Origin: Polytrichum commune
Lineage: Eukaryota; Streptophyta; Polytrichopsida; Polytrichales; Polytrichaceae
Direction: 5' to 3'
NCBI GenBank assembly: GCA_950295325.1
Contig: OX485807.1
Coordinates: forward strand, 37,848,440 to 37,912,439
Length of the DNA stretch: 64,000 nt
Below the pieces are notes generated by a model. That model had not been told where the DNA came from. It saw nothing but the letters and a program-made list of their open reading frames with translations, and did no database searches. The position numbers and the translations under genes are program-made. The first letter of the stretch is position 1; the number at the start of each line of letters is the position of its first letter. Positions 3,608 through 64,000 of the stretch are shown one piece after another.

Positions 3608-4486
3608 TCAGCGGAAGATGATAACTTGAAAGGACCATGGCTTCTGTTTTGCAAGCACAAATTCCTTCATGCGATGCTTTGCTTTGTGTTGCTGGTTGAA
3701 CCGACCGGCCAAGGTGGAACCCCTACGGTGGTAGAAATCGTGACAGCCTTCGCAAAGATCGTAGCCACAGGTCTCCGGACAGTCGAGGCATTGGTATCTC
3801 TTCCCAAGGATGGGCATCATCCCGCACCCGTCGCAGCCAACGCCCTGGTGGATAGGGCCCGTGAGGATGTTGGAATTCTCGCTGGGGTTATACGCTTTCC
3901 ACGTTGCAATTGTTCGGTTCTTCACCTCCTCGGACCTGGTCTTGTACTCCTTCGGAAACTCCCTCTCGATGTACTGGTCGAGCTCAAGATGCACCTGCGG
4001 GGCAGTTCCAGGGTGTAAGGTATGACATATCCTGCAATTCTTGGACCCCGCAATTACGCACGTCTGGCACATGAGGTGGCCGCAATTCATCGCCACCGGC
4101 TTGTGCAATAATTTCTTGCAAACCTTGCAGTCCAGCACAGACTTCACACTCGGCTTTTTTCCTACCGAGGCAGGGCCGTCTGGAATGTGCGGAGAGAAGT
4201 TGTTCTGTTCACGCTCTTCGGCGAGAACCTCTTTAGCTCGATTCTTGTACTCCGCAGGTGCCACGACTTGCTGGAGGTGGTGGAGCTGCTCGCAAATGCG
4301 GGGGAGATGTACGTAGGATTTTGTGCATACAGGGCAGTGGGAGACTGTGTTCATATTCATCGACCGGTTGACGCACCAGAAACAGAACATGTGTCCGCAT
4401 CCTTGCACTACTGGCTTGTAACAAAGCTCCAAGCACACCGGGCAGTTGAATTGCTTGCTTGAGTTCGACATCCTGGCGACTACCAC
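3608..4486 (-). CDS. PRT1: PRT1-like N-degron E3 ubiquitin ligase (two RINGs plus ZZ finger)
   Basis: This predicts a 292-residue single-exon protein. RING 1 has C15, C18, C30, H32, C35, C38, C51 and C54. RING 2 has C120, C123, C135, H137, C140, C143, C151 and C154. A ZZ zinc finger follows, with pairs C218/C221, C233/C236 and C245/C248 and histidines around 267-271. The order RING-RING-ZZ, and the GRFNQQH stretch after the ZZ finger, match plant PRT1. That family recognises bulky aromatic N-termini in the plant N-degron pathway and ubiquitinates the substrate. Arabidopsis PRT1 is about 410 residues. This protein is shorter, mainly between RING 1 and RING 2 and at the C-terminus, where a basic KQKPWSFQ tail replaces the acidic tail. 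Met6 is an alternative start. A downstream exon reached from the SFQ codons cannot be excluded, because a GT follows directly. No partner gene is adjacent. Confidence 0.88.
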
Positions 4487-4926
4487 GGTTCACAGATAAA
4501 ATGACTGAGAAGAGCCTCTGAGCAATTACGGGAGCAATTACAGAGTCCTCAAATTGTGAGAAACTGTTTCTACCAAGATAGCGATTGCGCGACGGTCTGC
4601 AAGGCTCAGTAACCTCTTCACATTAGCGCTGCCATGTCGCACAATTGGTTCGATGATCCCTTGCACGACACACGAACCTTTTGGGATAACTGTGCTCTCG
4701 GATAGGCTTTGGCACTACATTTCGGTTATGCCACCACAAGTAGAGCTTCCAGAGTACCGGCAGCCTCTTCAATTGCCCTTCACCTGCCACCTGATTCGAA
4801 TTCCTTCTTCAAAAATATACGTGCAACACCGGGCCTGCAATTCCGTCAACACAGCAACAACCGCAAACGTAAGAGCCAAAATAATCACACAAACTCCACA
4901 CTCTCATGATGGCAGAAGATAGAGCC

Positions 4927-16096: not shown

Positions 16097-16654
16097 CTAA
16101 GAAGACCGGTGCTTCTTCGGAGCCGATCCCTCCTTTGAGTGACTCCCTAACCCGCTGACGGCGGATGAGCCCCCTGCCGGCGATGCCTTTTGCAGCCGCG
16201 TGAGCATCCTCCTCATGTTCGGAGACGGAGCAACCTCGTCCTCCGAATCCGCTGCCCTCTCAGTCCGTGGGGTAGCGGTCCCTGGTGTTCCGGAGACTGT
16301 CCCTGGGGTTCCGGAAGCTGTCCCCATCCGGATGCTTCGGACTGGAGAAGGATCGCTTCCGGTGCCCTGCTCCGGGTTCCGTCCGCCCGAGATCGAAGCC
16401 GTCCGCGGATCCCTGTTGGAGGCCGCCCTTGAGGGTGGCGGAGGAAAGGGACTCACCATTTGGCAGTCCCGCGGAGACGATGGCGAGGCGTGGGACATAG
16501 GGGCCTTGCCCCTACTCGGAGTTGCCTCCCGATTGGAAATCTGGTGCCGGATCGGCGTCCTAGCCCTATCCGGAGTCCGGGACCTATCCGAGTTCCGCGG
16601 AACAGGGGACTGGCCCCTTCCGGATCGGACCGACCCGGTGCTCTTCCGCCTCAC
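16097..16654 (-). CDS. frame-shifted C-terminal tail of the gag-like protein (185 codons)
   Basis: This low-complexity frame is rich in Ser, Arg, Pro and Thr, with many SRTPD/RTP-type and GTPGT repeats. It has no recognisable domain. It overlaps the last 71 bp of the 539-codon frame in a different phase, and its only start is a GTG, so it is unlikely to be translated independently. Its composition continues the basic, Pro/Ser/Gly-rich tail of that protein. I infer that the two were one protein of roughly 700 residues separated by a one-nucleotide shift, or are joined by frameshifting or splicing. A CAGGTGAGG sequence sits exactly at the overlap. Similar tails bind nucleic acid in gag-type proteins, but that role is only inferred. 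Confidence 0.5.
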   Translation of the reverse strand: MRRKSTGSVRSGRGQSPVPRNSDRSRTPDRARTPIRHQISNREATPSRGKAPMSHASPSSPRDCQMVSPFPPPPSRAASNRDPRTASISGGRNPEQGTGSDPSPVRSIRMGTASGTPGTVSGTPGTATPRTERAADSEDEVAPSPNMRRMLTRLQKASPAGGSSAVSGLGSHSKEGSAPKKHRSS

Positions 16655-18203
16655 CTGGGGAGAACGGACCCTTTCCGGAGCCCCTCCCGGAACTACCAGG
16701 CCGAGAGCCGCCTCCCTGTTGGCTGGGTCCTGCAGAGGACGGCGGATTCTGAACCAGGGCTACTTCACCAACCACCTCGTAGAGGGTTCTGGTTGGTGAC
16801 CCTGGCGGACCCGGATAGAGCACCCTCCGGGGTGTTCCGCTTGGCGGGACCACCCTCTGGATTTCCGCCAGGAGATCCTTCATCGTCCGTGAATACTTCA
16901 CGAGGATGGGGAGGGTCTGCCTGGCGGAAGCGGGATCTCCAGATTCCATCATCCGGTCGTAGAGATGTGCCTTGTTGACGATCTCCGCCGGATGACCCAC
17001 CAGCTCCCGGATTCGGTTGAAGAACACTGCCTGCTCCGCATGGTACTTCCGGATCTCCTCGCTCTTCTGACTCAGCTCCTGAGTTATGGCCGCTACCTGT
17101 GCGGTGAGGTGGGCATTCTCCGTCTTGGCCTGCTCCAGCTCCTTCCGGTCCGCCCTCTTTGCCAATTCCCGGAGAATGTTTCCGGGTCCGCAGTCGTCCA
17201 GAGCATGGTTTGCCCCCCTGACGATGTGCTCCAGTCGGTAATACTGGGTCTTGAGGTCCTCCATCCCCTCCTGGAACCATTTGAACGGATTCTCCGGAAA
17301 GTCCCAAGCGGATAGATCCACATTTCGCCATGGGGTCTCCCGGCTGGGTCCGGCTTCCGGATGTTGGTGAGGGGGAGGAGGAGAGAGTGGCCTCGAGACG
17401 GTTGGCGGCGGGCTTCCGGGTGACGAAGGAGGTGCTTCCGGAAGAATAAGGTCGCTGGAGGTCTCCGTCTCGACGTCTCCGGCTTCCGGAAGCAGCTTGT
17501 AGGTGACCTCGTCCGCCGCTATCGTGAGCAGGTCCTCCTCCTCGGCCGTGATGCAGTCGAAATGCTGGTAGAGATGCAAAATGAAGGGGGAGAGGAAGGA
17601 GGGTTTCCGGCCAATATGGGGGAGGGCCCGCCCCACTATTTCCTGGATAATCAGCCCCCAGTTCACAGGCCGGACTCCGGACATGGCACCGAACAGCGTG
17701 TTAGCCATGGTAAGGCTAATCCGCTTCGGCTTGTCCGGGTTAAGGATAGGTAGGAGGAATTCCAACACCCTCCTCTCTCTCAGGTTCCGGCAGTTCCCGG
17801 GGTGGAAGCCGTCCTTCGGGTCCGCGTCTCCTCTAAATTTTCTGGCGAACAAGCCATCGCGGCGGCCGGCCCATCCCTCTGTAATCCCCCGAGGAAACCC
17901 GTAGACCCTGTTCCAAATGTCCGGAGTCCAGTGTTCCGGATCTCTCCTCTTTGTCCCTAGCCACTGGTTTCCTCTCTCAAACTTAAACTCTCGGAGGGTA
18001 TCTTCGGCTCGGAGGTTCCAGGGTTTGGCTAGCAACCCCGCGCAGCCCATAACCCGGAGATCCTCCGCGAGCTCCTGTAGCTCCCTATCCTCCCTCGGAA
18101 TTGCAGGGATGAGGGCTTTGAGCGGAACCGGGATAGGTTCCCTCTGATCCTTTTCCCGTGCTTCCGGCATTTTTCCTCTTCTCTCAGTTTCCGGCTCGAC
18201 CAC
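16584..18203 (-). CDS. transposon-associated gag-like protein (539 codons)
   Basis: The product has four parts. Residues about 40-240 form a folded domain with several Trp motifs (WTPDIWNRVYGFPRG near 92-106) and a hydrophobic ISLTMANTLFGAMSGVRPVNW stretch read in two halves near 162-182. A Pro/Ser-rich linker spans about 253-290. A predicted coiled coil covers about 345-400. The rest is a Pro/Gly/Arg-rich tail. This layout resembles gag-like proteins of plant retroelements and the putative plant transposon proteins found next to them, but I cannot name a family. There is no zinc knuckle, protease or reverse transcriptase. Codon use is GC-rich, unlike the surroundings. It lies wholly inside the 4.1-kb unit. 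The 539-codon frame ends abruptly after a CAGGTGAGG site, and an overlapping frame continues the tail. Confidence 0.65.
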   Translation of the reverse strand: MVEPETERRGKMPEAREKDQREPIPVPLKALIPAIPREDRELQELAEDLRVMGCAGLLAKPWNLRAEDTLREFKFERGNQWLGTKRRDPEHWTPDIWNRVYGFPRGITEGWAGRRDGLFARKFRGDADPKDGFHPGNCRNLRERRVLEFLLPILNPDKPKRISLTMANTLFGAMSGVRPVNWGLIIQEIVGRALPHIGRKPSFLSPFILHLYQHFDCITAEEEDLLTIAADEVTYKLLPEAGDVETETSSDLILPEAPPSSPGSPPPTVSRPLSPPPPHQHPEAGPSRETPWRNVDLSAWDFPENPFKWFQEGMEDLKTQYYRLEHIVRGANHALDDCGPGNILRELAKRADRKELEQAKTENAHLTAQVAAITQELSQKSEEIRKYHAEQAVFFNRIRELVGHPAEIVNKAHLYDRMMESGDPASARQTLPILVKYSRTMKDLLAEIQRVVPPSGTPRRVLYPGPPGSPTRTLYEVVGEVALVQNPPSSAGPSQQGGGSRPGSSGRGSGKGPFSPGEAEEHRVGPIRKGPVPCSAELG

Positions 18204-18247
18204 GGAAACTCCCTCTCTTCCGGATTCCTTCCCTTCCGTCTAATTGC

Positions 18248-21230: not shown

Positions 21231-21600
<370 letters not shown>

Positions 21601-49739: not shown

Positions 49740-51240
49740 ATATGCATGTGATATTCATCTTAATATATAACCTCTACACAATTAATATTACGAAATACAA
49801 GATTAAAAATATTTTTGAAAAAAAATCAAAACATGCACACTCACCTTATACAAATAGAGATGCATGGACAAGCGACCTTGCTCCTTAAACAATAATTCTT
49901 CTAAATTTACAATATTGAGTGGCCTTGCATCTTTGCAAGACAAACATTATAAGTCATCTATGGCCTTTGTTTCATAACTTCAAAGTGTATTCACCTTCAC
50001 TCAAGTTCCCTGTTTGGATTTCTAAATATGCACATGTGATATTTATCTTGATATCAAACCTCTACACAATACATCGAACTCTAAAAACATGTCCATATAT
50101 AATAGGTGCACTCACCTTATATACAAATAGAGTTGTAGGCATGAGTAGCCATACATCTCCGAAAAGACAACCATTATAAGTCATCTATAACTTTCACTTC
50201 AAGAATTCCGAATGTATTCACCTCGATTCATGTCCCCCATTTGGCTTTGTTAAAATGCACATTGATATTTATCTTGATATCAAATCTCTACTAATGCACC
50301 TGGTAGGTTCAAATCCATGGAAGGTCCATAATAAGTGTACTTGCCATATACACATAGAGATACAAGGATTACATCTCCAAAGACCATTATAGGTCATCTA
50401 TAACCTTTGCTCCAAGAATTCCGAAATGTATACACCTTCACTCATGTTCCTCGTTTGGATTTGCTAATATGCAGATGTGATATTTATTTTGATGTCAAAT
50501 CTATACATAATACATTGAAATATAGAGAAACGTCGTTGATAGGTGCACCCAGTTCTACAAATACATACGCAAGGACTAGTAGCTTACATCTCCAAAAGAC
50601 AACCATCATAAACATAGTTTTTGTGAGAAAGTTATATTCACATGTGACTCTTTTTTTTCAAGGCTGACTTGTTTTCTAGTCTTGTGGAGTGCACTTCAAC
50701 TTTGAAAAAATTTGCATTTTGAAACTAATTTTTGTACGAGCACCTATGGTGCAAGTTCATACAGTAAAGAAGAAGTAGTTTTATATATATCGTGAATGTT
50801 ATGTTTTGATTGCTATCAAGAGCATTTGAAGTAGCAATGAAGAACATAACATTCATGATATTAAAAGACTTCTTCTCTTGTTATCACTTGCACATGCTAC
50901 TAGCATTTTGTGAATACGTTCAAATGTAGTTGGCAAAAGTTGCCTCCAAAGACCAATTCAAGTTGGCCTTCCTTGTATTCGAGAAAACATCATTTGTGAC
51001 ATTTTTGTGTGCCACGTGACGTTTTCACAAATACCATGTTTATTAGTAATCTATAACCTTTGCTTCAAAAACTCTAAATGTATTCACATTGACTCATGTT
51101 CCCCATTTGGATTTGCTAATATGCACAAATTACAAATTTTATCTTTATTTCAATCCTCTACATAGTACTTTGAAATCTAAAACCATGCCCATAACCGATA
51201 GCGCATCCAAGAGCATAAGGACTATAGAATCGCATCAAAT
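49740..51240. repeat. tandem array, five units of about 215-290 bp with one insertion
   Basis: The pattern atgcacatgtgatatttatc, ttgatatcaaacctctacac, aatacattgaa, ggtgcactcaccttatacaa, ctccaaaagacaaccattat, aagtcatctataacctttgc, ttcaccttcactcatgttcc and ccgtttggattt recurs. Units start near 49,748, 50,036, 50,262, 50,476 and 51,133. The last interval is enlarged by an approximately 400-bp insertion that contains a foldback. Confidence 0.65.
50750..50892. repeat. imperfect foldback of about 143 bp inside the tandem array
   Basis: The left side gtgcaagttc...agaagaagt..tttta.atat..tgaatgttatgtt...attgcta is mirrored by tagcaat...aacataacattca, then tataaaaga.ttcttctc and acttgcac. It could be an eroded MITE or a transcribed hairpin. 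No target duplication was found. Confidence 0.5.
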
Positions 51241-52395
51241 ATTCTCATCCAAGGAGGAACAACAAAATCCATAAATTCCTAGAATTTGTTCTTGAGCTTA
51301 TCAATTATGTCCATAAGTCGGCTCGAGTAAATGGATGACAATCTCTTTTTATTGGTAATCTAGTCCAATATTGATCACTCATCCAAGACCATAAGAGTTA
51401 TCATAACTTGTCACACGTTTTCATCCATGGACGAGTTCACGAGTTGATTGATAATGTCCGATAACTAGCTTGAGTAGGTGCATGACACTCTCACTCCGTT
51501 GGTTATCTATTCCTTAAAAGGTATAGTCACCTTATACATGTAAGTAGAGATGTAGGGGCAAGTGGCCATGCTCTCCAACATAAAGATCCATGTCAAATTT
51601 CCCTTTGTAATTTGAGGCACCCTTGCTTTGAGTAATGCAATCTACATATTTCAAAGTGGACTACATTTTTTGGGCAAGGTATTATGTTCCTCCAAACAAT
51701 CAGAGCCGTTGAAGTCCATCTCTAGGCCTTTGCGCTCAATAATGTGTTAAGGGGAGTGCATTGTGAGGAACACATACACCTATGCTATGCCTACAACATC
51801 TCAAGGTACCCGTATTCCCCACAATGCACTCATGAATGCATTACCTATAAATCATTGGTTGAAAAACATAATGTCCCACCCAAAATTGTATTGCAATGTG
51901 AACTACATGGAGTACATTACAAAAATAGAGCTATCTCATATTACAAAGGGAAAATCAACATGGGTCTTTACTTCCCCATAACACACTTCCTCCTTATGCA
52001 TTACCTATTGCTAAAAGCCCATCAAAAGTTGATTAATTAGTAGAGTTATCCGTAAAGTTCCTATAAGAGGGAAGAAATTGTGGGTTTGATCCTTCTTTGA
52101 GAAGACCTTCTATTAAGAGCTTGTTAGTTAGTCGTACATGGGAACCTATTTTGAAAGTTGGGTGAAGCTTTTGGGACCTCCTCTCCCCAACGCTCAAACT
52201 TTGAGAGAATTTTAGGATCTAAAATAAGGTATGCGCATGGGACAGGTTGGTCTAAATTTTGGATCGGCTTATGCAAGGCTAGCTTGGCCCACACATCCTA
52301 ATAGGACAAGCTAGAAAGCTAGTCTTTTCAAAGCCCGACACCACTATTTGTGTATGATAATTCAAGCATTAAGAAAACTTGGGTGACTATTCTCA
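51241..52395. other. gene-less interval with dispersed repeat fragments
   Basis: Frames at 51,744-52,040 (up to 98 codons) are unrecognised. The segment 52,040-52,160 matches 14,368-14,490, and 52,290-52,395 matches 19,420-19,510. This looks like layered old repeats rather than a gene. Confidence 0.45.
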
Positions 52396-52957
52396 GGGGC
52401 GCTTCACACTATGGCCGAAGGTCGGCATGCCATCGATCTCCACCAATCAAATTGCAAGAAACCAAGAGTTCGGCCTCTCAACCCTTCACACTAAGGCCAA
52501 AGTCCAAAGGCCATCGCAATTTAAAATGCTTACTTTTTTACGAAGGCGACAAACTCTTGAAGGAAGTTTGGGTCGGACGGGAATGGAAACCCAAACTATG
52601 GTCGAGAGGCTGTTAATTTTTTATATTAAAAAATCAATCATTGACAAGATCTTGGCTGTTAGATTGGAGGGGTTGTTTTGGACAAGGAATGAAGTGGGAT
52701 GCTCCTTTAATTTGGGTTTGGACTTTGGGCTTGGCCATTGGAGGCTTCACATTAAGGCCATCCAAGTTGAGAGGCCATGGGAGTTCATGGCCAAAGGTTT
52801 GGACTTTGGAGGATTCACACTATGCCCGGCTGAAGGCTCCAATTACTATATTTTATTGGCAATCTATTTTCAGCCCATGTCTTTGGACTCTCAACAAAGT
52901 TTGGCCACTCAATCCCACGGCCTCTCGACTTCAACGGCCATAGTGTGAAGCGGCCCT
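52396..52957. mobile_element. 562-bp hAT-like MITE with exact 8-bp duplication
   Basis: The left end GGGGCGCTTCACACTATGGC and the right end GCCATAGTGTGAAGCGGCCC (then T) are inverted repeats. TATTCTCA flanks both sides exactly (52,388-52,395 and 52,958-52,965). A related site without the insertion exists near 19,510-19,550. An 8-bp duplication is the hAT signature. The 189-codon and 100-codon open frames inside contain no transposase motif and are taken as fortuitous. Confidence 0.8.
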
Positions 52958-52989
52958 TATTCTCATAAACTCAAGGTTTGGAAGAACTA

Positions 52990-53562
52990 AGGGCCACTTC
53001 ACACATGAGCCAAGACCTTGTGATGGTAAGGACCCTTGACTCTCATCCAAAGGCCGTACCATGGGTGTTGGGAAAGCCATTTTATGTAGTCTTGGGCCCT
53101 CAAGCATAGTGTGAAGTGAGAATGAACCATGTTTGCGGGACCATTGCATATTTTGTTGGCGGAAAAAGAGGGGAGGATTTGGTTTAATATAACATGTCTC
53201 AAACTCTATCAATTTAAGAGAATAACTTGGTGGTGTTTGTTTCACCTGGAATCTGTTCTGGAATCCGCCATGCAATTTGTCTTGAAATCTGTCCTCCTAG
53301 AAAAATATATTAAAAAAGTCATGGTCTCCCGGAACTTGCGTCAGGCCCACCTCTTGCAAATCCTAGTAGACCATGCACCCTTATCCACAACCTGCCATGT
53401 AGGATTCCATGTAGACTTTTCATCCACAAACTTTTCTTTAGGCCTTTAGGCCTTCACCTCCTAGTGTGAAGTGAACTTGGACAGTCCCCGCCTTTTCGAC
53501 CAATGAGAGCTCTTACATTGCCATGGTCAGGGGCCTTCAACCTTGTGTGTGAAGTGGCCCTA
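52990..53562. mobile_element. 573-bp MITE of the AGGGCCACTTCACAC family
   Basis: The left end AGGGCCACTTCACACATGAG and the right end gtgtgtgaagtggccct are inverted repeats. The interior landmarks cccttgactctcatccaaagg, gggccctcaagcatagtgtgaagtg and catggtctccc match other copies. It begins 32 bp after the previous element and ends about 460 bp upstream of the DWF1 copy A start codon. No clear duplication. Confidence 0.65.
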
Positions 53563-53606
53563 AACCCATGGTTTCATCTCCTTTACTTTACAAATAACTC
53601 TAGTAC

Positions 53607-53770
53607 CTACACATAACATTATTCAGAAACATAACAATGCTATGAGGGATTGACAATATTACATGGAATATTCTCCACATCGAGACTGAATGTGAAAAAC
53701 ACAGGGAATATTCCCTGGAATACTGTCAGTCCTTCAGAACACTGTTATGGATCTGAATAATGTTATGTAG
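53607..53770. mobile_element. 164-bp foldback MITE upstream of DWF1 copy A
   Basis: The left end CTACACATAACATTATTCAG and the right end CTGAATAATGTTATGTAG are inverted repeats apart from a two-base gap, and pairing continues into cataaca. A ggaatattcc palindrome lies inside. No clear target duplication. It ends about 250 bp before the start codon of copy A; nothing equivalent is visible upstream of copy B. Confidence 0.65.
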
Positions 53771-54019
53771 GCGACTGTTTGAATTTGGGAAGAACAATAG
53801 GCTCCACACAAGGCCAAAGATAGCCCACAGCGCCTGCTCCTACAAACTCTCGCTCTCTCCCTCTTCGCTGTCGCGGAGCAAGCACTCCGACCTCAAAGCC
53901 CGATGCTACTCTCGCCATTCCGTTTAGTTTCTCATCACCTGCGCAGGGTGGCACGGGGTGACGGAGAGCTTCGGATGGTGTGAGGAGGCGGGGCAATCTT
54001 CCTCCTGCGAGTTGGCAGC
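53771..54019 (+). promoter_or_regulatory. probable promoter-proximal region and 5' leader of DWF1 copy A
   Basis: This interval lies between the last MITE and the start codon. It is GC-rich, with a ctctcgctctctccctcttcg pyrimidine tract. Only the last ~90 bp (from about 53,928) resembles the region upstream of copy B, with small indels and substitutions. I cannot place a TATA box or transcription start. Confidence 0.35.
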
Positions 54020-57000
54020 ATGTCGGACCTCGAGAAGCCGTTGCGGCCCAAGAAGCCCAAGACGTGGGTGGACTGGGCAGTGCAGTTCCGATGGATCCTC
54101 GTCATCTTCGTGGTGCTTCCCGTGTCCAAGGCCTTCGACTGGTGGGCGTACTTCGGCGACATCTGGTCGGCCTCCAAGTCGGAGAAGAGGAGGCAGAAGG
54201 AGCACGACGAGAATGTGGAGAAGGTGATCAAGAGGTTGAAGTCCAGAGACCCCGCCAAAGATGGCCTCGTCTGCACTGCTCGTAAGCCGTGGATCGCCGT
54301 GGGCATGCGCAATGTGGACTACAAGCGAGCTCGCCATTTCGAAGTGGACCTCTCTCCTTTCCGTCAGGTGCGTGGTTTTGGCCCGCTCTCCCCTGTTTGA
54401 TGTGTCTTTGGTATTGACGAAGCGGTCTATTTCATCCTCAACCCCGGGAATGCGGTGTTTGTCTTCTTCGAATGTGGATTGACAGCTGTTTCATTGCAAC
54501 CCCGCCTGCCCCTCTCTGTACCTGTGATTGACTGAGGCGGATCTTTTTAGACCGACTCTGTTTCATGCAAAAAGTCCTGGAGCGACGCATCTTAACAGCA
54601 TCCCCGACATAAGGAATCTCTGATGTGGTAGCATGCATTCGCGAGTTCTTCTTGCAGGTTGATGCCAACTTAGTCAATGAGGAACTCATGTGAGCATCAA
54701 TCTGAGCAGTAGTGAATTCCATTGTCGAGTTTTTACACATTGCGGGTATGGCAAAGCAGAGTCATTAGTCACACATTCGAAGGATCACTCGTGAAGGTAG
54801 TTTTCTCAGGTTCTTGCATTCACATTTTGACAACCTCTGTTTTAAGATTGCAGTAGAAGTCGTTCGCTGCATTGCAACATTTATATGATTCCAGCAGCTT
54901 GTTATCGAGCAATCAAGCGCATCCATGACCTGCATTGTAAATCTTTGAACTTTACATCCATCGACATGCTGTTTGGCAAGATGATTCTGCAGTCTAATGC
55001 CAGCTACAAACTTTTGCTCCATCAGATCAGGCGCGCTTCTTTCAACAAAATTTTCCCTCCAGCATGCATACCCTTCCTTCAAGGGCATTGTTCTTCCACA
55101 GCTATTTGTAGAAATAGCTCTCTTAGCATACAAAATGGAGTAACATCAGTCTCGCTTTCAACGTCTTAAACTGATGCGTGCCTTCGTCCTGTAATTTGAC
55201 TTTCCCTATCCCATATCTGCTGATACATAAAGGTGCACGTGTGAAGCTTTGGTTGTCTATCCTGCAACCTTTAGCGGATTCCTTCACCTTCCCAAAATCC
55301 GATAGTCTTCTACGTGAAACGTGGATTGGTGTGCTTTCAAACTTTGAGCGGCCATTTGTGATATGTCCAATGGGGATGTCGTGTAGTCGTACCGATTCGG
55401 TTTCCTGCGATGTGGTAGGTGTTGGAGATCGACGAGGACAACATGATTGCCCGATGTGAGCCACTGGTGAATATGGGCCAGATCACGAGGATGACGGTGC
55501 CCAGGGGTCTGTCCCTGGCAGTGGTCGCCGAGTTGGACGACCTGACTGTGGGAGGCCTCATCAACGGATACGGGATCGAGGGGAGCTCTCACATCTTCGG
55601 CCTCTTCTCGGATACCGTGGTGGCGTACGAGATCATTCTTGCCGATGGGCGCCTGGTGCGCGCGACTGCTCACAACGAGTACTCGGATTTGTTTCATGCA
55701 ATCCCCTGGTCGCAAGGCACATTGGGTCTGCTCGTGGCAGCTGAAATCAAGTTGATCAGGGTGAAACCATACATGAGGTTGACGTACAAGCCCGCAAGGG
55801 GAACTCTCCAAGACTTGGCGAAGGCTTACAACGACTCATACATGGCTGCCGATGGTGATCAAGACAATCCCGAGAAGGTGCCAGACTTTGTGGAGGCCAT
55901 GGTGTACAGCGATTCGGAAGCCGTGTGCATGACAGGACGATACGCATCAAGGGAAGAGGCCAAGCAAAGAGGCAACAAGATCAACGAGGTAACGACGTGT
56001 GCCCCTCAGCGTGCACGGATTTTTTGAGAGTAATTTAGCGGAGCTTGGACTTGGGAATCTGGTCACGACTCCCTGTGAACCAGGACGCCCGAATTTGCAA
56101 TTTGGGTTTTGTGCACGAATCTGAGATCACGTTCCTACATACACAGGCATAGTTGGTGAATTGCATACCGTGGAGTTACTGTAGTTGTCGAGGTGCGAAT
56201 TTTGACGCCGTTGTGTTGCAGGTCGGGTGGTGGTTCAAGCCTTGGTTTTACCAGCATGCGGAGACGGCGTTGAAGAGAGGGGAGTTCGTGGAATACATCC
56301 CAACAAGAGAGTACTACCACAGACACACGCGGTGCCTGTACTGGGAGGGCAAGCTGATCCTTCCCTTCGGCGATCAATTCTGGTTCCGGTACCTGTTCGG
56401 CTGGATGATGCCACCAAAGGTTTCGTTTTTGAAGGCCACTCAGGTGTGTGGTGAACGAGAGTGGTGGTTTGTGTTCAACTGGGATGCATGCGTCTTCGTT
56501 ACATTGTTGCATTGGTTCTTTTGTTTACATTTATTTGGAAGTCACACGAGAGTTTACAAGTCGAAGAAGTTGAGCTAAGTGGAAGGATGGGATTGCAGGG
56601 CGATGCCATCCGCAACTACTACCACGAGCGTCACATCATCCAAGACATGCTGGTGCCTTCTTACAAGGTGGGAGACGCCCTGGAGTTCAGCGAGCGTGAA
56701 TTCGAGGTACGTGTGTTGGAGGAGGCGCGGTGAATTTCTGTAATTTGTGATTGTGGGCAATTATTTGGCTGTGATCCGACGCCGATGAGGTGAAGGAAGC
56801 GATGCGGTCTGAGATGTGTGGGTTTGGTGGTCGTCGCAGGTGTACCCCATCTGGCTGTGCCCACACAGGCTGTACAAGGCTCCGATCAAAACCATGATCA
56901 CTCCCGAGCCCGGATTCGAGCACGCAAAGCGTGTGGGAGACACCTCATACGCGCAGATGTACACCGACGTGGGTGTGTACTACACACCCCGCCCGGTGTT

Positions 57001-57292
57001 CAGGGGAGAGGAGTACGACGGAGCGGCAGCAGTGAAGAAGATGGAGGCATGGATGATCGAGAACCATTGCTTCCAGCCCCAATACGCAGTATCGGAGCTG
57101 AACGAGCGAGACTTCTGGAGGATGTTCGATGCATCGCTGTACCAGAGGTGCCGGGACAAGTACAGAGCAGTGGGAACGTTCATGAGCGTGTACTACAAGT
57201 CGAAGAAGGGCAGGAAGACGGAGAAGGAAGTCGCGGAAGAGGAGGCAAAGGTGTCTGAGAGCAGCTACGCAGATGTGGAGAACGCCGAGTGA
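54020..57292 (+). CDS. DWF1: Delta24-sterol reductase (DWARF1/DIMINUTO), copy A, 5 exons, 566 residues
   Basis: Exons: 54,020-54,367; 55,419-55,988; 56,222-56,443; 56,599-56,706; 56,840-57,292. All four introns are GT-AG and phase 0, giving 566 residues (Arabidopsis DWF1 has 561). Plant DWF1 is an FAD-dependent membrane oxidoreductase that converts 24-methylenecholesterol to campesterol, feeding membrane sterols and, in vascular plants, brassinosteroids. The protein has a hydrophobic N-terminal anchor at about 22-38. The FAD-binding core starts in exon 2 (about 117-245), with VNMGQITRMTVP, DDLTVGGLINGYGIEGSSH and AIPWSQGTLGLLVAAE. Conserved stretches follow: GWWFKPWFYQHA, YIPTREYYHRHTRCLYW, VYPIWLCPHRLYK and GTFMSVYYKSKKGRKTEKE. 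Nothing is missing, so it should be functional. It is convergent with copy B, about 3.4 kb away stop to stop. Exon GC content is far higher than the surroundings. Confidence 0.96.
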
Positions 57293-57668
57293 GTGGCCGA
57301 GCAGCCACTGAAATCGTGAGATGGGTGATGTCGTGCAGGAGAGAACGAATGTTAGGGCAGAAGGCACGTGAGCGTGCAATTGTTTTGGCGCCTGCAATTG
57401 GGTCAGGGATAGTTTGGTGTAGACAGGGAAATGTAGTCGGAGTTCTGAAAATGTAGTGGAAACTAAGAGAAGGAAGAGTAGGTGGGTTGTGGTAGTGAGG
57501 AGGTTTTTAAGCATTGCTTGCCAGTGTATTTTTTGATGCATCTTTTGTCCACCATTGAGCGACTTTAAAGAGTCAAATCGCTTGACCAGAATTTGGGAAA
57601 CAACAGTGAGCTCTTGGCATGAAATCATTTCCAATTACTGCCTCCAGTGATTCTGAATTTTATAATTG
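55204..57668. repeat. left arm of a 2,465-bp inverted repeat (DWF1 copy A)
   Basis: From ccctatccc in intron 1 to ttttataattg past the stop, every position mirrors 60,295-62,759 with the constant coordinate sum 117,963. All reading frames shared by the arms translate identically, exons and introns alike, so no indel exists and substitutions are absent or extremely rare. Similarity stops abruptly at both ends. Confidence 0.93.
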
Positions 57669-57774
57669 AGCATGTAGGTTCCTTGTATGTGTTGCATCTG
57701 CACGCCCTTCCATCCTGCTATAAAATCACTCCAGAAGTAAAGGCCCTACCTCGTGAGTGCGACATTCGATAATA

Positions 57775-58017
57775 CAACGACCTCGATATAATGACACAAA
57801 TTTTGTAGACCAAATTTATGAGTTAAAAGTCGGCCTCTGCAATACGACTTTTACACTCCTAGGGCTCCAAAATGTCATACTCTAGACAATGAACGTACAT
57901 ATGGCGGGCTCAACACATGTATAAATACGCTGTTAATATTAGACTTGTCTAACTCTCACATGTGACACCTTGATAATCTGAAATTCTCAAACGTGTCATA
58001 TTAAAGAGGTAGGATTG
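57775..58017. mobile_element. 243-bp TA-flanked MITE in the DWF1 spacer
   Basis: The left end caacgacctcgatataatga, continuing cac, pairs imperfectly with the right end gtgtcatattaaagaggtag, continuing gattg. TA flanks both sides (57,773-57,774 and 58,018-58,019). TA duplications and a cgacctcgatata-type end suggest a Tc1/mariner or pogo-derived MITE. Confidence 0.5.
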
Positions 58018-59259
58018 TAATACAAAGGTGAGCACGAGCTTCATGGAACACTTAGATGTGTTGCAATGTGAGCGTTACAGAGGAGCGTCTGTTGGAGGTC
58101 AGCACTAGAGCTGAAGAGATTGTAGACTATATTACTGCAATTGAGGGAGTCCAGGTTGTTCAACTAATTCTCATTTACAGTGCTTATATGGCAGTTTTCT
58201 TATGTCAGGATGTCCATTTAATGAGGAGAAGTAGTAGATTTGAAGATGACTCTGGGTTGGGGTGCAACAATAAAAATGTTTATCTAAGCTACAGCAGGTT
58301 TCTTTGATTTGTTGTATCTGGTTCTTAAGAATCTAAATCCTTGAACAGAGATCTCTGCCAAGTTCCAACTGACGTCTTTCAGGTTTTTGTATATTGTGGC
58401 CTAGTATTGAATGACATCTCCAGTGAACTTCTGGTCTTTTGATTTCAAGGAGTATTCAGATTCATATTTAAAGTGGTTATTTGTACATACCAATGTTCGA
58501 ATGGTGAATGCATTGTATCAAGAATGAGCATCAATAATGGTATGCAAGAATCTACACCTGAGCATCAAAATTGTAATACCAATCAAATATTGATAGTTGA
58601 CGAGTATTTCAAGGTGAAAGAATCTTTGTAAACCCGAGCTATTAATTGGCCAACTTAATCCTAACCTTATTGAAACTAAGACGGTTCTAACTTGGTACAA
58701 ATGTTTTTGCATGGTCTATATACCCGAATGATATCAATAAAAGTCCAAGACTTATATGTACAACTTGGATTCGTTTAAAACCCATATTCTTGGCTTGGTA
58801 CAGAGTTCGGGAAGTTTTTGAAGCCTTAGTGGCTAATTGCCGGTAGTTGCTACGAAGGGTCGGATTTTTTCCAATTTACGTCGGCAAGAGCCTGTCTTTT
58901 GTAAAATCAATCAGCCAATTGCCCATATTTTCATATTTTCATTGGCCAATATCCGATTAAATGGAATTCATATCGGTACTAATTGTTTAAAAAATGTATG
59001 AAAAGTTATTAGAAATCATTTCTTAGTACAAAATCTTGAATAAGTGAAAAGAAAGGCATGTTCAAAACTTTAAATTTGAAGAGTTAATATCATTGGCAAC
59101 GGTTGAACCTAGCAATGCCTTCACCGCTTGAAGGTCAAGGGTCCCCCAATTCTTCATAGAAGCAATTGGATTTGGTCATGGAAAGGTTGCATAAATCAAA
59201 AAGTTTAAGGTTTAGGGTACTTCCTCAAGTGCATCATCAGATGCCCCAGACAAATAGTG

Positions 59260-59634
59260 CTATGGATTGCTATACAAATAGCGAAACTTAGCAACATCCT
59301 TCCAAAGATCCAAAGCACTTGTTAGAATGTCATCAAAATCATTGTTTGGGCCTTCTATAGCAACACGCATCATACTTTCTAAGTTAGATGTAGACATTCG
59401 ATAACGAAGTTTTTGTTTAATAGTATTTTGAACAGAAAACGCCCTTTTACATGTTGCAATACTCACACATTGGCACTTAACAATCTCAACAAGAATCAGA
59501 AGGTTAGAATACTTCACTTTCAAAGATGGAGACCAAGAAATTGATGTCCATACATCTGCAAAAGTAAGATCCATCCACTCTGTACTTCCTTGTATCTTGA
59601 AAGCACAAAACGCTTGCTTGCACAATGTTGCCAA
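59260..59634 (-). pseudogene. hAT transposase C-terminal fragment
   Basis: A 124-codon frame ends in a stretch typical of the hAT C-terminal dimerisation region. It shows a YSNLLILVEIVKCQ-like helix, a CKRAFSVQNTIKQKLRYRM motif (the family's A.cERgFS..n.IK...R..m), then LESMMRVAIEGP and a closing LDLWKD. Hydrophobic and Arg/Lys positions fit the ZNF862/KIAA1586-like plant hAT branch. The catalytic core and zinc finger are absent, so this is a relic that cannot act alone. It lies in the spacer between the two inverted DWF1 genes, on the same strand as copy B. I saw no clear transposon ends around it. A ggctaattgccgg motif occurs at both 58,831 and about 59,720, but this is too short to define the element. 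Confidence 0.75.
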
Positions 59635-60294
59635 TATTTGAATACTTCTTCAGGCTGAAATCCAGTAATTCACAAGAAGAATCGGCTACATTTCCGGGAC
59701 ATTTTCTGGTCCATCGGCTAATTGCCGGAGGATTGAAATTACAATCGGATTCCCATCTGATGGTTGGAAATTTGGACCGGCCATGAGGGGAAATCCATCT
59801 ACAAATAATGAACTAGCCGTCGGTTTTCCCCAACCATTGGCTTGGTAACCCCATTGCTGAATTTATCTTAGGAGCGTGAAAACATATTACTTCTTCACCC
59901 ACAGGATTCCCAACAATTAGATTCATGTTTAAGTTTGATGCAAACTTAATTGCTGTTGAAGGTTTCCCAAAGCGTTCCTGAGTAATTGCAACAAATTAGG
60001 TTTATGTTTGACTCAAGTCCTTTCCATAAGCAAGTGCTGCTAGCAGATGAGAAAGGAGTACAAGGGGAGATGTATATTGAGGTGAGCGCGCGTATAAACA
60101 ATTAAGGACCACACTTTCAAATATGAAATCAGTTCATTGCTGTGACGCGAATTCGCCGCCTTTAGGTAATCAAATCTCCACTTATATTTGGACTGAAGAG
60201 GATATCGAGATTATAGTGCTGACATCGATTGGTAGTTCATTGGCTAACATGACATAATTTTCATCCGTTCGCAACTTGAAGCATGGATAGGTAG

Positions 60295-62759
60295 CAATTA
60301 TAAAATTCAGAATCACTGGAGGCAGTAATTGGAAATGATTTCATGCCAAGAGCTCACTGTTGTTTCCCAAATTCTGGTCAAGCGATTTGACTCTTTAAAG
60401 TCGCTCAATGGTGGACAAAAGATGCATCAAAAAATACACTGGCAAGCAATGCTTAAAAACCTCCTCACTACCACAACCCACCTACTCTTCCTTCTCTTAG
60501 TTTCCACTACATTTTCAGAACTCCGACTACATTTCCCTGTCTACACCAAACTATCCCTGACCCAATTGCAGGCGCCAAAACAATTGCACGCTCACGTGCC
60601 TTCTGCCCTAACATTCGTTCTCTCCTGCACGACATCACCCATCTCACGATTTCAGTGGCTGCTCGGCCACTCACTCGGCGTTCTCCACATCTGCGTAGCT
60701 GCTCTCAGACACCTTTGCCTCCTCTTCCGCGACTTCCTTCTCCGTCTTCCTGCCCTTCTTCGACTTGTAGTACACGCTCATGAACGTTCCCACTGCTCTG
60801 TACTTGTCCCGGCACCTCTGGTACAGCGATGCATCGAACATCCTCCAGAAGTCTCGCTCGTTCAGCTCCGATACTGCGTATTGGGGCTGGAAGCAATGGT
60901 TCTCGATCATCCATGCCTCCATCTTCTTCACTGCTGCCGCTCCGTCGTACTCCTCTCCCCTGAACACCGGGCGGGGTGTGTAGTACACACCCACGTCGGT
61001 GTACATCTGCGCGTATGAGGTGTCTCCCACACGCTTTGCGTGCTCGAATCCGGGCTCGGGAGTGATCATGGTTTTGATCGGAGCCTTGTACAGCCTGTGT
61101 GGGCACAGCCAGATGGGGTACACCTGCGACGACCACCAAACCCACACATCTCAGACCGCATCGCTTCCTTCACCTCATCGGCGTCGGATCACAGCCAAAT
61201 AATTGCCCACAATCACAAATTACAGAAATTCACCGCGCCTCCTCCAACACACGTACCTCGAATTCACGCTCGCTGAACTCCAGGGCGTCTCCCACCTTGT
61301 AAGAAGGCACCAGCATGTCTTGGATGATGTGACGCTCGTGGTAGTAGTTGCGGATGGCATCGCCCTGCAATCCCATCCTTCCACTTAGCTCAACTTCTTC
61401 GACTTGTAAACTCTCGTGTGACTTCCAAATAAATGTAAACAAAAGAACCAATGCAACAATGTAACGAAGACGCATGCATCCCAGTTGAACACAAACCACC
61501 ACTCTCGTTCACCACACACCTGAGTGGCCTTCAAAAACGAAACCTTTGGTGGCATCATCCAGCCGAACAGGTACCGGAACCAGAATTGATCGCCGAAGGG
61601 AAGGATCAGCTTGCCCTCCCAGTACAGGCACCGCGTGTGTCTGTGGTAGTACTCTCTTGTTGGGATGTATTCCACGAACTCCCCTCTCTTCAACGCCGTC
61701 TCCGCATGCTGGTAAAACCAAGGCTTGAACCACCACCCGACCTGCAACACAACGGCGTCAAAATTCGCACCTCGACAACTACAGTAACTCCACGGTATGC
61801 AATTCACCAACTATGCCTGTGTATGTAGGAACGTGATCTCAGATTCGTGCACAAAACCCAAATTGCAAATTCGGGCGTCCTGGTTCACAGGGAGTCGTGA
61901 CCAGATTCCCAAGTCCAAGCTCCGCTAAATTACTCTCAAAAAATCCGTGCACGCTGAGGGGCACACGTCGTTACCTCGTTGATCTTGTTGCCTCTTTGCT
62001 TGGCCTCTTCCCTTGATGCGTATCGTCCTGTCATGCACACGGCTTCCGAATCGCTGTACACCATGGCCTCCACAAAGTCTGGCACCTTCTCGGGATTGTC
62101 TTGATCACCATCGGCAGCCATGTATGAGTCGTTGTAAGCCTTCGCCAAGTCTTGGAGAGTTCCCCTTGCGGGCTTGTACGTCAACCTCATGTATGGTTTC
62201 ACCCTGATCAACTTGATTTCAGCTGCCACGAGCAGACCCAATGTGCCTTGCGACCAGGGGATTGCATGAAACAAATCCGAGTACTCGTTGTGAGCAGTCG
62301 CGCGCACCAGGCGCCCATCGGCAAGAATGATCTCGTACGCCACCACGGTATCCGAGAAGAGGCCGAAGATGTGAGAGCTCCCCTCGATCCCGTATCCGTT
62401 GATGAGGCCTCCCACAGTCAGGTCGTCCAACTCGGCGACCACTGCCAGGGACAGACCCCTGGGCACCGTCATCCTCGTGATCTGGCCCATATTCACCAGT
62501 GGCTCACATCGGGCAATCATGTTGTCCTCGTCGATCTCCAACACCTACCACATCGCAGGAAACCGAATCGGTACGACTACACGACATCCCCATTGGACAT
62601 ATCACAAATGGCCGCTCAAAGTTTGAAAGCACACCAATCCACGTTTCACGTAGAAGACTATCGGATTTTGGGAAGGTGAAGGAATCCGCTAAAGGTTGCA
62701 GGATAGACAACCAAAGCTTCACACGTGCACCTTTATGTATCAGCAGATATGGGATAGGG
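60295..62759. repeat. right arm of a 2,465-bp inverted repeat (DWF1 copy B)
   Basis: Reverse-complement counterpart of 55,204-57,668. The spacer between arms is 57,669-60,294 (2,626 bp). At the outer edge, copy A continues with gacttt and copy B with gctttg before the shared ccctatccc, then the introns are unrelated for several hundred bases. Confidence 0.93.
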
Positions 62760-63674
62760 CAAAGCAATACGCTTATTGCTGAAGCGGCAACATACAGTTA
62801 TTTACGTCACCGCTTCACGACACGACACTGAGGTACGTATTGAAACGTTCATGCATCCACATAAAGAGTAGAATACATCTCCAGCATCAGTGGTTCGTTA
62901 CGAGCAGAAAAGAACTACTTTGCAGAAAGTACATGTGTGGAGGTTCATGCGAATGAAGAAGCCCATAAACCCTGACGAGTTCTCCTTCCTCTGACATGCC
63001 CGAGTAAGTGAACTTCAATACAGTGTTGCCTCGCAATTGTCCTCAGGCAGAACGTAAGCACGCTACCACATCGGAAGCTCCATTTGTGGAGGGTGCTGTT
63101 AAAGTGAGTTGCTCCAGGACTTTTTGCATGAAACAGAGTCGGTCTAAAAAGATCCGCCTCAGTCAATCACAGGTACAGAGAGGGGCAGGCGGGGTTGCAT
63201 TGAAGCAGCTGTCAATCCACATTCGAAGAAGACAAACACCGCATTCCCGGGGTTGAGGATGAAATAGACCGCTTCGTCAATACCAAAGACACATCAAACA
63301 GGGGAGAGCGGGCCAAAACCACGCACCTGACGGAAAGGAGAGAGGTCCACTTCGAAATGGCGAGCTCGCTTGTAGTCCACATTGCGCATGCCCACGGCGA
63401 TCCACGGCTTACGAGCAGTGCAGACGAGGCCATCTTTGGCGGGGTCTCTGGACTTCAACCTCTTGATCACCTTCTCCACATTCTCGTCGTGCTCCTTCTG
63501 CCTCCTCTTCTCCGACTTGGAGGCCGACCAGATGTCGCCGAAGTACGCCCACCAGTCGAAGGCCTTGGACACGGGAAGCACCACGAAGATGACGAGGATC
63601 CATCGGAACTGCACTGCCCAGTCCACCCACGTCTTGGGCTTCTTGGGCCGCAGCGGCTTCTCGAGGTCCGACAT
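60671..63674 (-). CDS. DWF1: Delta24-sterol reductase (DWARF1/DIMINUTO), copy B, 5 exons, 566 residues
   Basis: Exons in reading order: 63,674-63,327; 62,544-61,975; 61,741-61,520; 61,364-61,257; 61,123-60,671. Splice sites and phases equal those of copy A, and the encoded protein appears identical over all 566 residues. Exon 1 shows one apparent silent difference (ccg-ctg in B, ccg-ttg in A, near codon 9). Intron 1 is 782 bp instead of 1,051 bp. Its first part is alignable but diverged (to about 63,060), its middle is unrelated to copy A, and its last part is identical. Introns 2-4 and the sequence past the stop are identical. The enzyme role is as for copy A. The upstream region differs from copy A beyond about 100 bp, so the two genes may be expressed differently while making the same enzyme. 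Both copies look intact. Confidence 0.96.
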
Positions 63675-64000
63675 GCTGCCAACTCGCAGGAGGAAGATTG
63701 CCCCGCCTCCTCACACCATCCGAAGCTCTCCGTCACCCCGTCCCACCTTGCGCAGGTGACGTGATGTGGTGAGAAACAACGAGACGCCGGAGGTGCGAGC
63801 GCACCATAAGCACCTTCAATCCCCTCTCCCTGCCTGACACAACAGAGGAGAGCGGGAGAAAGGCTTCCAGTAAAGCCATCGCGATGTGTGCGGAGCCTCC
63901 GCGATGGGCAGCGAACCCCGGGGGAGAGTGTACGGCGCGGGTTTCCCCGCCCGGCCCGTCCGTCCTTCGCCCAAGAATCTCGGCTCTTGGCGAAATAGAA
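63675..64000 (-). promoter_or_regulatory. probable promoter and 5' leader of DWF1 copy B
   Basis: The interval is GC-rich. The first ~100 bp is alignable to the copy A leader (ggtgg.acggggtgacgg, tcacctgcgca) with a 10-bp indel, and the rest is unrelated to copy A. No TATA box is evident. The window ends here, so the full promoter is not visible. Confidence 0.35.

Follow-up and report, generated by a model that had tools for sequence, protein, structure and literature searches.

Two facing DWF1-type genes encode one protein

The stretch of DNA analysed here, hereafter the window, comprises 64,000 nucleotides of the Polytrichum commune genome (contig OX485807.1, positions 37,848,440 to 37,912,439; G000:C5:37848440-37912439 in our numbering) and belongs to a contig of 52.9 Mb in an assembly of 407,808,757 bases and 64 contigs. 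At its right end lie two five-exon genes of the DWF1 type, arranged tail to tail. Both are intact: the exon borders are the same in the two copies, GT-AG is found at 4/4 introns in each, and both translate into an identical protein of 566 amino acids, the single coding difference (TTG/CTG at codon 8) being synonymous. Intron 1 is longer in the left copy (1,051 bp) than in the right (782 bp). The exons are placed as follows.

54020-54367, plus strand: left exon 1, 116 codons, from the splice and translation check
55419-57292, plus strand: left exons 2-5, at 55419-55988, 56222-56443, 56599-56706 and 56840-57292 (including the stop codon)
60671-62544, minus strand: right exons 5-2, at 60671-61123 (including the stop codon), 61257-61364, 61520-61741 and 61975-62544
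63327-63674, minus strand: right exon 1

A domain search of the product detected the Pfam family PF01565 (FAD_binding_4) at residues 109-198 (E = 5.8e-14), that is, a flavin adenine dinucleotide (FAD)-binding domain of the PCMH type. Its relatives in PDB are FAD oxidoreductases, headed by DprE1 (E = 4.5e-9, residues 107-229), and no DWF1 or DHCR24 chain was found among the 25 PDB matches. The protein is identical at 420 of 564 positions (74%) to a sequence that we take to be that of Arabidopsis DWF1, a value that is good only if this presumed reference is right. Judging from PF01565 and this match, DWF1 appears to be a good name for the product, whose predicted activity would be the conversion of 24-methylenecholesterol into campesterol by reduction; both copies are presumably expressed and the enzyme presumably functional.

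Identity between the copies is a mosaic

The sequence-only reading of this locus had described two intact tail-to-tail genes of five exons with the same 566-residue product, forming an inverted repeat with indel-free arms of 2,465 bp and a coordinate sum of 117,963, introns and 3' flank included, and had proposed that the arms be aligned exactly and their substitutions counted. Exon borders, splice sites and translations bear out the first part, and the alignment bears out the second for what we call the inner arms: over 2,465 bp, the longest exact run between the copies, there are 0 mismatches and no indel. Each inner arm comprises the final 215 bp of intron 1, exons 2-5, introns 2-4 and ~370 bp past the stop codon. 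BLAST and a repeat search lengthen the pair to 55196-57668 / 60295-62767, the added 8 bases contributing 3 mismatches when left ungapped, and the arms occupy separate places in the assembly (G000:C5:37903635-37906107 on the plus strand and 37908734-37911201 on the minus strand). The outer arms have another coordinate sum, 117,694, because the two copies of intron 1 differ in length.

55204-57668, plus strand: left inner arm, same as 60295-62759
60295-62759, minus strand: right inner arm, same as 55204-57668
53930-54641, plus strand: left outer arm (5' untranslated region, exon 1 and start of intron 1), partner 63053-63764
63053-63764, minus strand: right outer arm (5' untranslated region, exon 1 and start of intron 1), partner 53930-54641
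54642-55195, plus strand: left intron 1 middle, 554 bp, any similarity to 62768-63052 being weak
62768-63052, minus strand: right intron 1 middle, 285 bp, counterpart of 54642-55195

Identity stops sharply at the arm ends, and inside one intron divergence passes from ~0.5% to ~28%. Along the left copy, mismatches to the right copy are distributed as follows.

53930-53952: upstream edge of the outer arm, 4/23 mismatches
53953-54583: outer tract, 3/631 mismatches (99.5% identical), with 0/67 in the 5' untranslated region, 1/348 in exon 1 and 2/216 in early intron 1
54584-54641: next part of intron 1, 16/58 mismatches
55196-55203: far edge beside the inner arm, 3/8 mismatches
100 bases beyond 57668: 80/100 mismatches

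The earlier picture of a near-perfect inverted repeat whose copies mirror each other uniformly therefore holds for the 2,465-bp inner arms and gives way elsewhere to a mosaic, in which intron 1 carries the 16/58 mismatches and has its middle replaced, and in which part of that intron, like both flanks, has diverged or is unrelated. The 58-bp zone is homologous still (42/58 identical, equalled by 0 of 100,000 shuffles), and so is the 23-bp zone upstream of the outer tract (19/23 identical, again 0 of 100,000). Global alignment of the intron 1 middles reveals a weak, collinear similarity (z = 3.5, equalled by 1 of 300 shuffles). No homology was found between the upstream flanks, whose scores were equalled by 4/100 shuffles in local and 255/300 in global alignment.

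Random redistribution of the 26 mismatches among the 3,185 aligned sites, repeated 20,000 times, never left a mismatch-free run of more than 1,330 bp, so the run of 2,465 bp is not due to chance, although this control takes no account of rate variation between coding and other sites. A comparison confined to non-coding sites is free of that fault: the inner tract has 0/1,110 differences and the adjoining part of intron 1 has 16/58 (Fisher P = 1.5e-22), which makes the arms far more alike than the homologous DNA beside them, albeit with a short comparison zone (58 bp). Inner and outer tracts also differ from each other (0/2,465 versus 3/631; Fisher P = 0.008).

A search of the 408-Mb assembly with inner-arm DNA yielded two places among the best candidates scored, both in the window, and neither DNA nor protein searches found a third near-identical copy among the best candidates scored. 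The 15 matches of the protein search were the 10 exons of the pair, 4 matches at C2:11096316-11100083 and 1 at C2:11059676, the last being 33% identical and containing two stops. The cluster of four is a third DWF1-family gene on a different large contig (G000:C2:11096316-11100083, locus L029, minus strand), 47-59% identical per exon, with no intron after residue 116 and its other introns at different positions, which marks it as an old paralog. This gene may share the reductase function. The designation of the pair as an essential-pathway gene is not supported as stated, since the C2 family member is a further candidate reductase and the pair may not bear sole responsibility.

A hAT-type element lies in the spacer

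57669-60294, no strand assigned: spacer between the arms, 2,626 bp, whose two halves gave no sign of inverted homology
58801-59839, no strand assigned: hAT-type element, 1,039 bp, with a perfect 8-bp target-site duplication (GCTTGGTA) at 58793-58800 and 59840-59847
59260-59649, minus strand: remnant frame matching PF05699, the hAT C-terminal dimerisation region (E = 1e-4; 22.4 bits, with the cut-off at 21.4)

An 8-bp target-site duplication is typical of hAT elements. Here it accompanies ends that are imperfectly inverted and begin with CA (CAGAGTTCGGG / CAATGGTTGGG) and a dimerisation region, PF05699 being barely over its cut-off. A related copy at ~28.5 Mb of the same contig (L020) is without ~380 inner bp and is flanked by GCGAGGAA and GTGAGGAA, which, read by eye, are 7/8 alike. 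Minus the element, the spacer would measure ~1.58 kb. The search for inverted homology between the 3' flanks, that is, the two halves of the spacer, gave a score equalled by 31/100 shuffles, and by 38/300 once the hAT element was taken out.

Duplication followed by gene conversion is the best reading

The reading that we consider best, at a probability of roughly 0.7, is that the inverted duplication is old and that gene conversion has since homogenised its transcribed parts. A pair of DWF1-type genes (24-methylenesterol C-24 reductase) would have arisen by inverted duplication long enough ago for the flanks and intron 1 to diverge, and the facing copies would then have undergone non-allelic gene conversion, by which the transcribed parts were overwritten at least twice. 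One such event would have left the outer tract of ~631 bp, from the 5' untranslated region to early intron 1, in which 3 differences would have gathered since; another would have produced the inner tract of 2,465 bp, from late intron 1 to the 3' flank, too young for any difference. Alternatively, a single exchange may have skipped the middle of intron 1, which could not pair. The outcome would be one protein encoded by two copies with different upstream sequences. We favour later homogenisation over a simple inverted duplication, since the jump from 0.5% to 28% is not predicted by a single recent duplication but is expected if conversion acted on an old one.

The difference at the 1,110 non-coding sites of the inner tract has an upper 95% bound of 0.0027. 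With a substitution rate of ~7e-9 per site per generation, which may not be that of this plant, the last exchange would have taken place under some 0.2 million generations ago. The inner tract was probably the last to be converted, and the outer tract seems the older of the two, judging by three changes alone.

Several observations weigh against a duplication of great age with later conversion. The case for old divergence is built chiefly on 58 + 23 aligned bases, together with the weak global similarity of the intron 1 middles, which in local alignment is non-significant (12/100 shuffles equal). The missing homology of the upstream and 3' flanks would be equally expected from a recent, cleanly bounded duplication. 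The age gap between outer and inner tracts depends on 3 changes, and coding sequence does not make up the same fraction of both. Finally, the G+C content of the converted introns is 0.486 and that of the unconverted parts of intron 1 is 0.426 and 0.459; since this excess is slight, GC-biased conversion would have left no strong mark.

A rival reading is a single recent inverted duplication of ~3.7 kb, after which the middle of intron 1 was replaced in one copy, by insertion plus deletion or by a template switch while the duplication took place. We regard this as unlikely, though by no means far-fetched. The sharp edges, the unrelated flanks and the one perfect run fit it, and the hAT insertion in the spacer attests to transposon activity at the locus; however, 16/58 mismatches beside 3/631, together with 4/23 upstream, are not explained by insertion alone.

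An artefact of assembly or polishing, in which one gene is shown twice or diverged copies are collapsed to one consensus over 2,465 bp, seems to us quite improbable. Perfect identity of this length would result from a reused repeat node, and polishing can erase the few last differences between near-identical copies. Nevertheless, 408 Mb in 64 contigs, with a C5 of 52.9 Mb, suggests long reads, and there is not one N in the 330 kb sampled. Moreover, the unlike upstream flanks and intron 1 middles, the unique 2.6-kb spacer and the 3 differences of the outer tract are unlike what a fold-back chimera or a haplotype copy would show.

Copying via mRNA is ruled out, because introns 2-4 sit inside the tract that is identical between the copies.

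Base composition does not point to silencing

The sequence-only reading had also attributed consequences for silencing to the repeat. The pair would then be a natural silencing inverted repeat in the manner of PAI4-PAI1, with read-through transcription giving hairpin RNA, small interfering RNA and finally methylation of DWF1, a scenario that we consider highly improbable. Its anatomy is suitable, the genes being tail to tail and the inverted, transcribed arms long and perfect, and examples of silencing by pairs of this sort are PAI4-PAI1 and VIM4-VIM2 of Arabidopsis Cvi (PMC13213937). Yet the observed/expected ratios in the arms are 0.88 for CpG and 1.08 for CWG, against left-flank values of 0.43 and 0.37, and lie near those of a gene-like RING-type open reading frame at 3608-4489 (CpG 0.81, CWG 1.13); the spacer has CpG and CWG at 0.62 and 0.87 of expectation. 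This is a weak test, because the converted 3' flank is itself low (CpG 0.61) and the presumed transposon frame at 16584-18239, gag-like by eye, is undepleted (0.78, 0.94). Taken with that reserve, the gene-like values of the arms do not support lasting methylation, and the consequences for silencing are not supported as stated.

The spacer likewise speaks against silencing. Here its 2,626 bp are retained, whereas at VIM4-VIM2 of Arabidopsis Cvi small RNAs were made where an intergenic stretch of 2.7-2.8 kb had been lost, according to the portion of PMC13213937 that deals with it. By analogy with VIM4-VIM2, a pair with a 2.6-kb spacer need not be silenced. One could go further and envisage a stable unit of two promoters and one protein, in which regulation would have diverged along with the unlike upstream flanks and intron 1, selection and repeated conversion would hold the enzyme identical, and widening of the spacer by the hAT element (~1.6 to 2.6 kb) would help to avoid hairpin RNA; this is a tentative proposal that we think quite unlikely. 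If real, the pair raises the question of how two identical genes that face each other stay active and unsilenced in a plant, and whether spacer length decides silencing, as the VIM4-VIM2 case suggests in the passages cited (PMC13213937).

The pair stands out from its surroundings

For comparison we sampled 32 stretches of ~10 kb on this one contig (~320 kb, or 0.08% of the genome) for inverted repeats of >=150 bp and >=85% identity. Of these stretches, 26 were taken from C5 and 6 from within the window, including one that overlaps the left arm. Three of the 32 contained an inverted repeat, of 509 bp (97.4%), 410 bp (89.8%) and 582 bp (86.8%), and sequences related to the first occur in further stretches of the sample, as expected of a transposon. 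Against the sampled stretches, the DWF1 pair stands out in both arm length and identity. The DWF1 inverted pair was not found described in the literature at the level of titles and abstract openings.

To the right of the window, 23 kb from the pair, an inverted repeat with ~505-bp arms, 97% identical and 160 bp apart, is located at L005:3725-4894 (~86,790-87,960 in window coordinates). Its relatedness to sequences in L009, L019 and L022 indicates that it is probably a transposon.

A larger inverted segmental duplication was considered and rejected. We compared 74 kb on the left (20 kb plus the window up to 53935) with 49 kb on the right (63701 to 39 kb past the window), and the first 40 BLAST matches contained scattered repeats only, with no extended inverted homology beyond the pair.

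Elsewhere in the window, Rfam gave 0 matches to structured RNA, and Pfam assigned no family to 5/5 other open reading frames or to 2/5 proteins of the main domain scan. Four further features were observed.

3608-4489, minus strand: 293-residue frame coding for two RING fingers and one ZZ finger; we take it to resemble the E3 ligase PRT1
16097-18239, minus strand: open frames of 551 and 220 residues, G+C 60%, no Pfam match, retroelement gag-like by eye
21427-21535: perfect (TA)54.5 dinucleotide run
50000-53900, left of the pair: CWG 0.37 and CpG 0.43 of expectation, as in CHG-/CG-methylated repeats

Comparison with known systems

In its FAD-binding domain, and in its 74% match to the presumed Arabidopsis sequence, the product is like DWF1/DIMINUTO. 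That enzyme is the FAD-dependent sterol C-24 reductase of plants, as described in part of PMC6018864. Distinctive here are the two identical products of one locus and a further family member, 47-59% identical and with differently placed introns, encoded elsewhere.

The pair shares with PAI4-PAI1 and VIM4-VIM2 the arrangement of adjoining inverted paralogs in which long, nearly identical stretches take in introns as well, as set out in sections of PMC13213937. In VIM4-VIM2, the first exon and first intron are 100% identical and the genes lie head to head, whereas PAI4-PAI1, like the present pair, is tail to tail (same sections of PMC13213937). Small RNAs were reported for these Arabidopsis pairs (PMC13213937, in part); ours retains its 2.6-kb spacer and bears no compositional mark of methylation.

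A close parallel to the proposed origin is found in the palindromes of sex chromosomes, whose identity is maintained by arm-to-arm gene conversion and whose arms differ by 0.021% in human, according to the portion of PMC3403216 drawn on here. Like them, the DWF1 pair consists of inverted duplicates with intact genes and with arms far more similar than their presumed age would suggest; unlike our 2.5-kb arms, those of the palindromes are far larger, and their conversion rates come from human-chimpanzee comparison (PMC3403216, same portion). The contig of the DWF1 pair, moreover, is not known to be a sex chromosome. If conversion is the cause here too, the age that gene trees assign to the two copies would be that of the last conversion and not that of the duplication. 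Inverted gene pairs maintained alike by conversion are thus already known, to judge from the same portion of PMC3403216, and this one is a clean and testable case: the ends of its conversion tracts would be readable to the base inside a gene for hormone and membrane sterols, with the diverged intron 1 as a built-in control.

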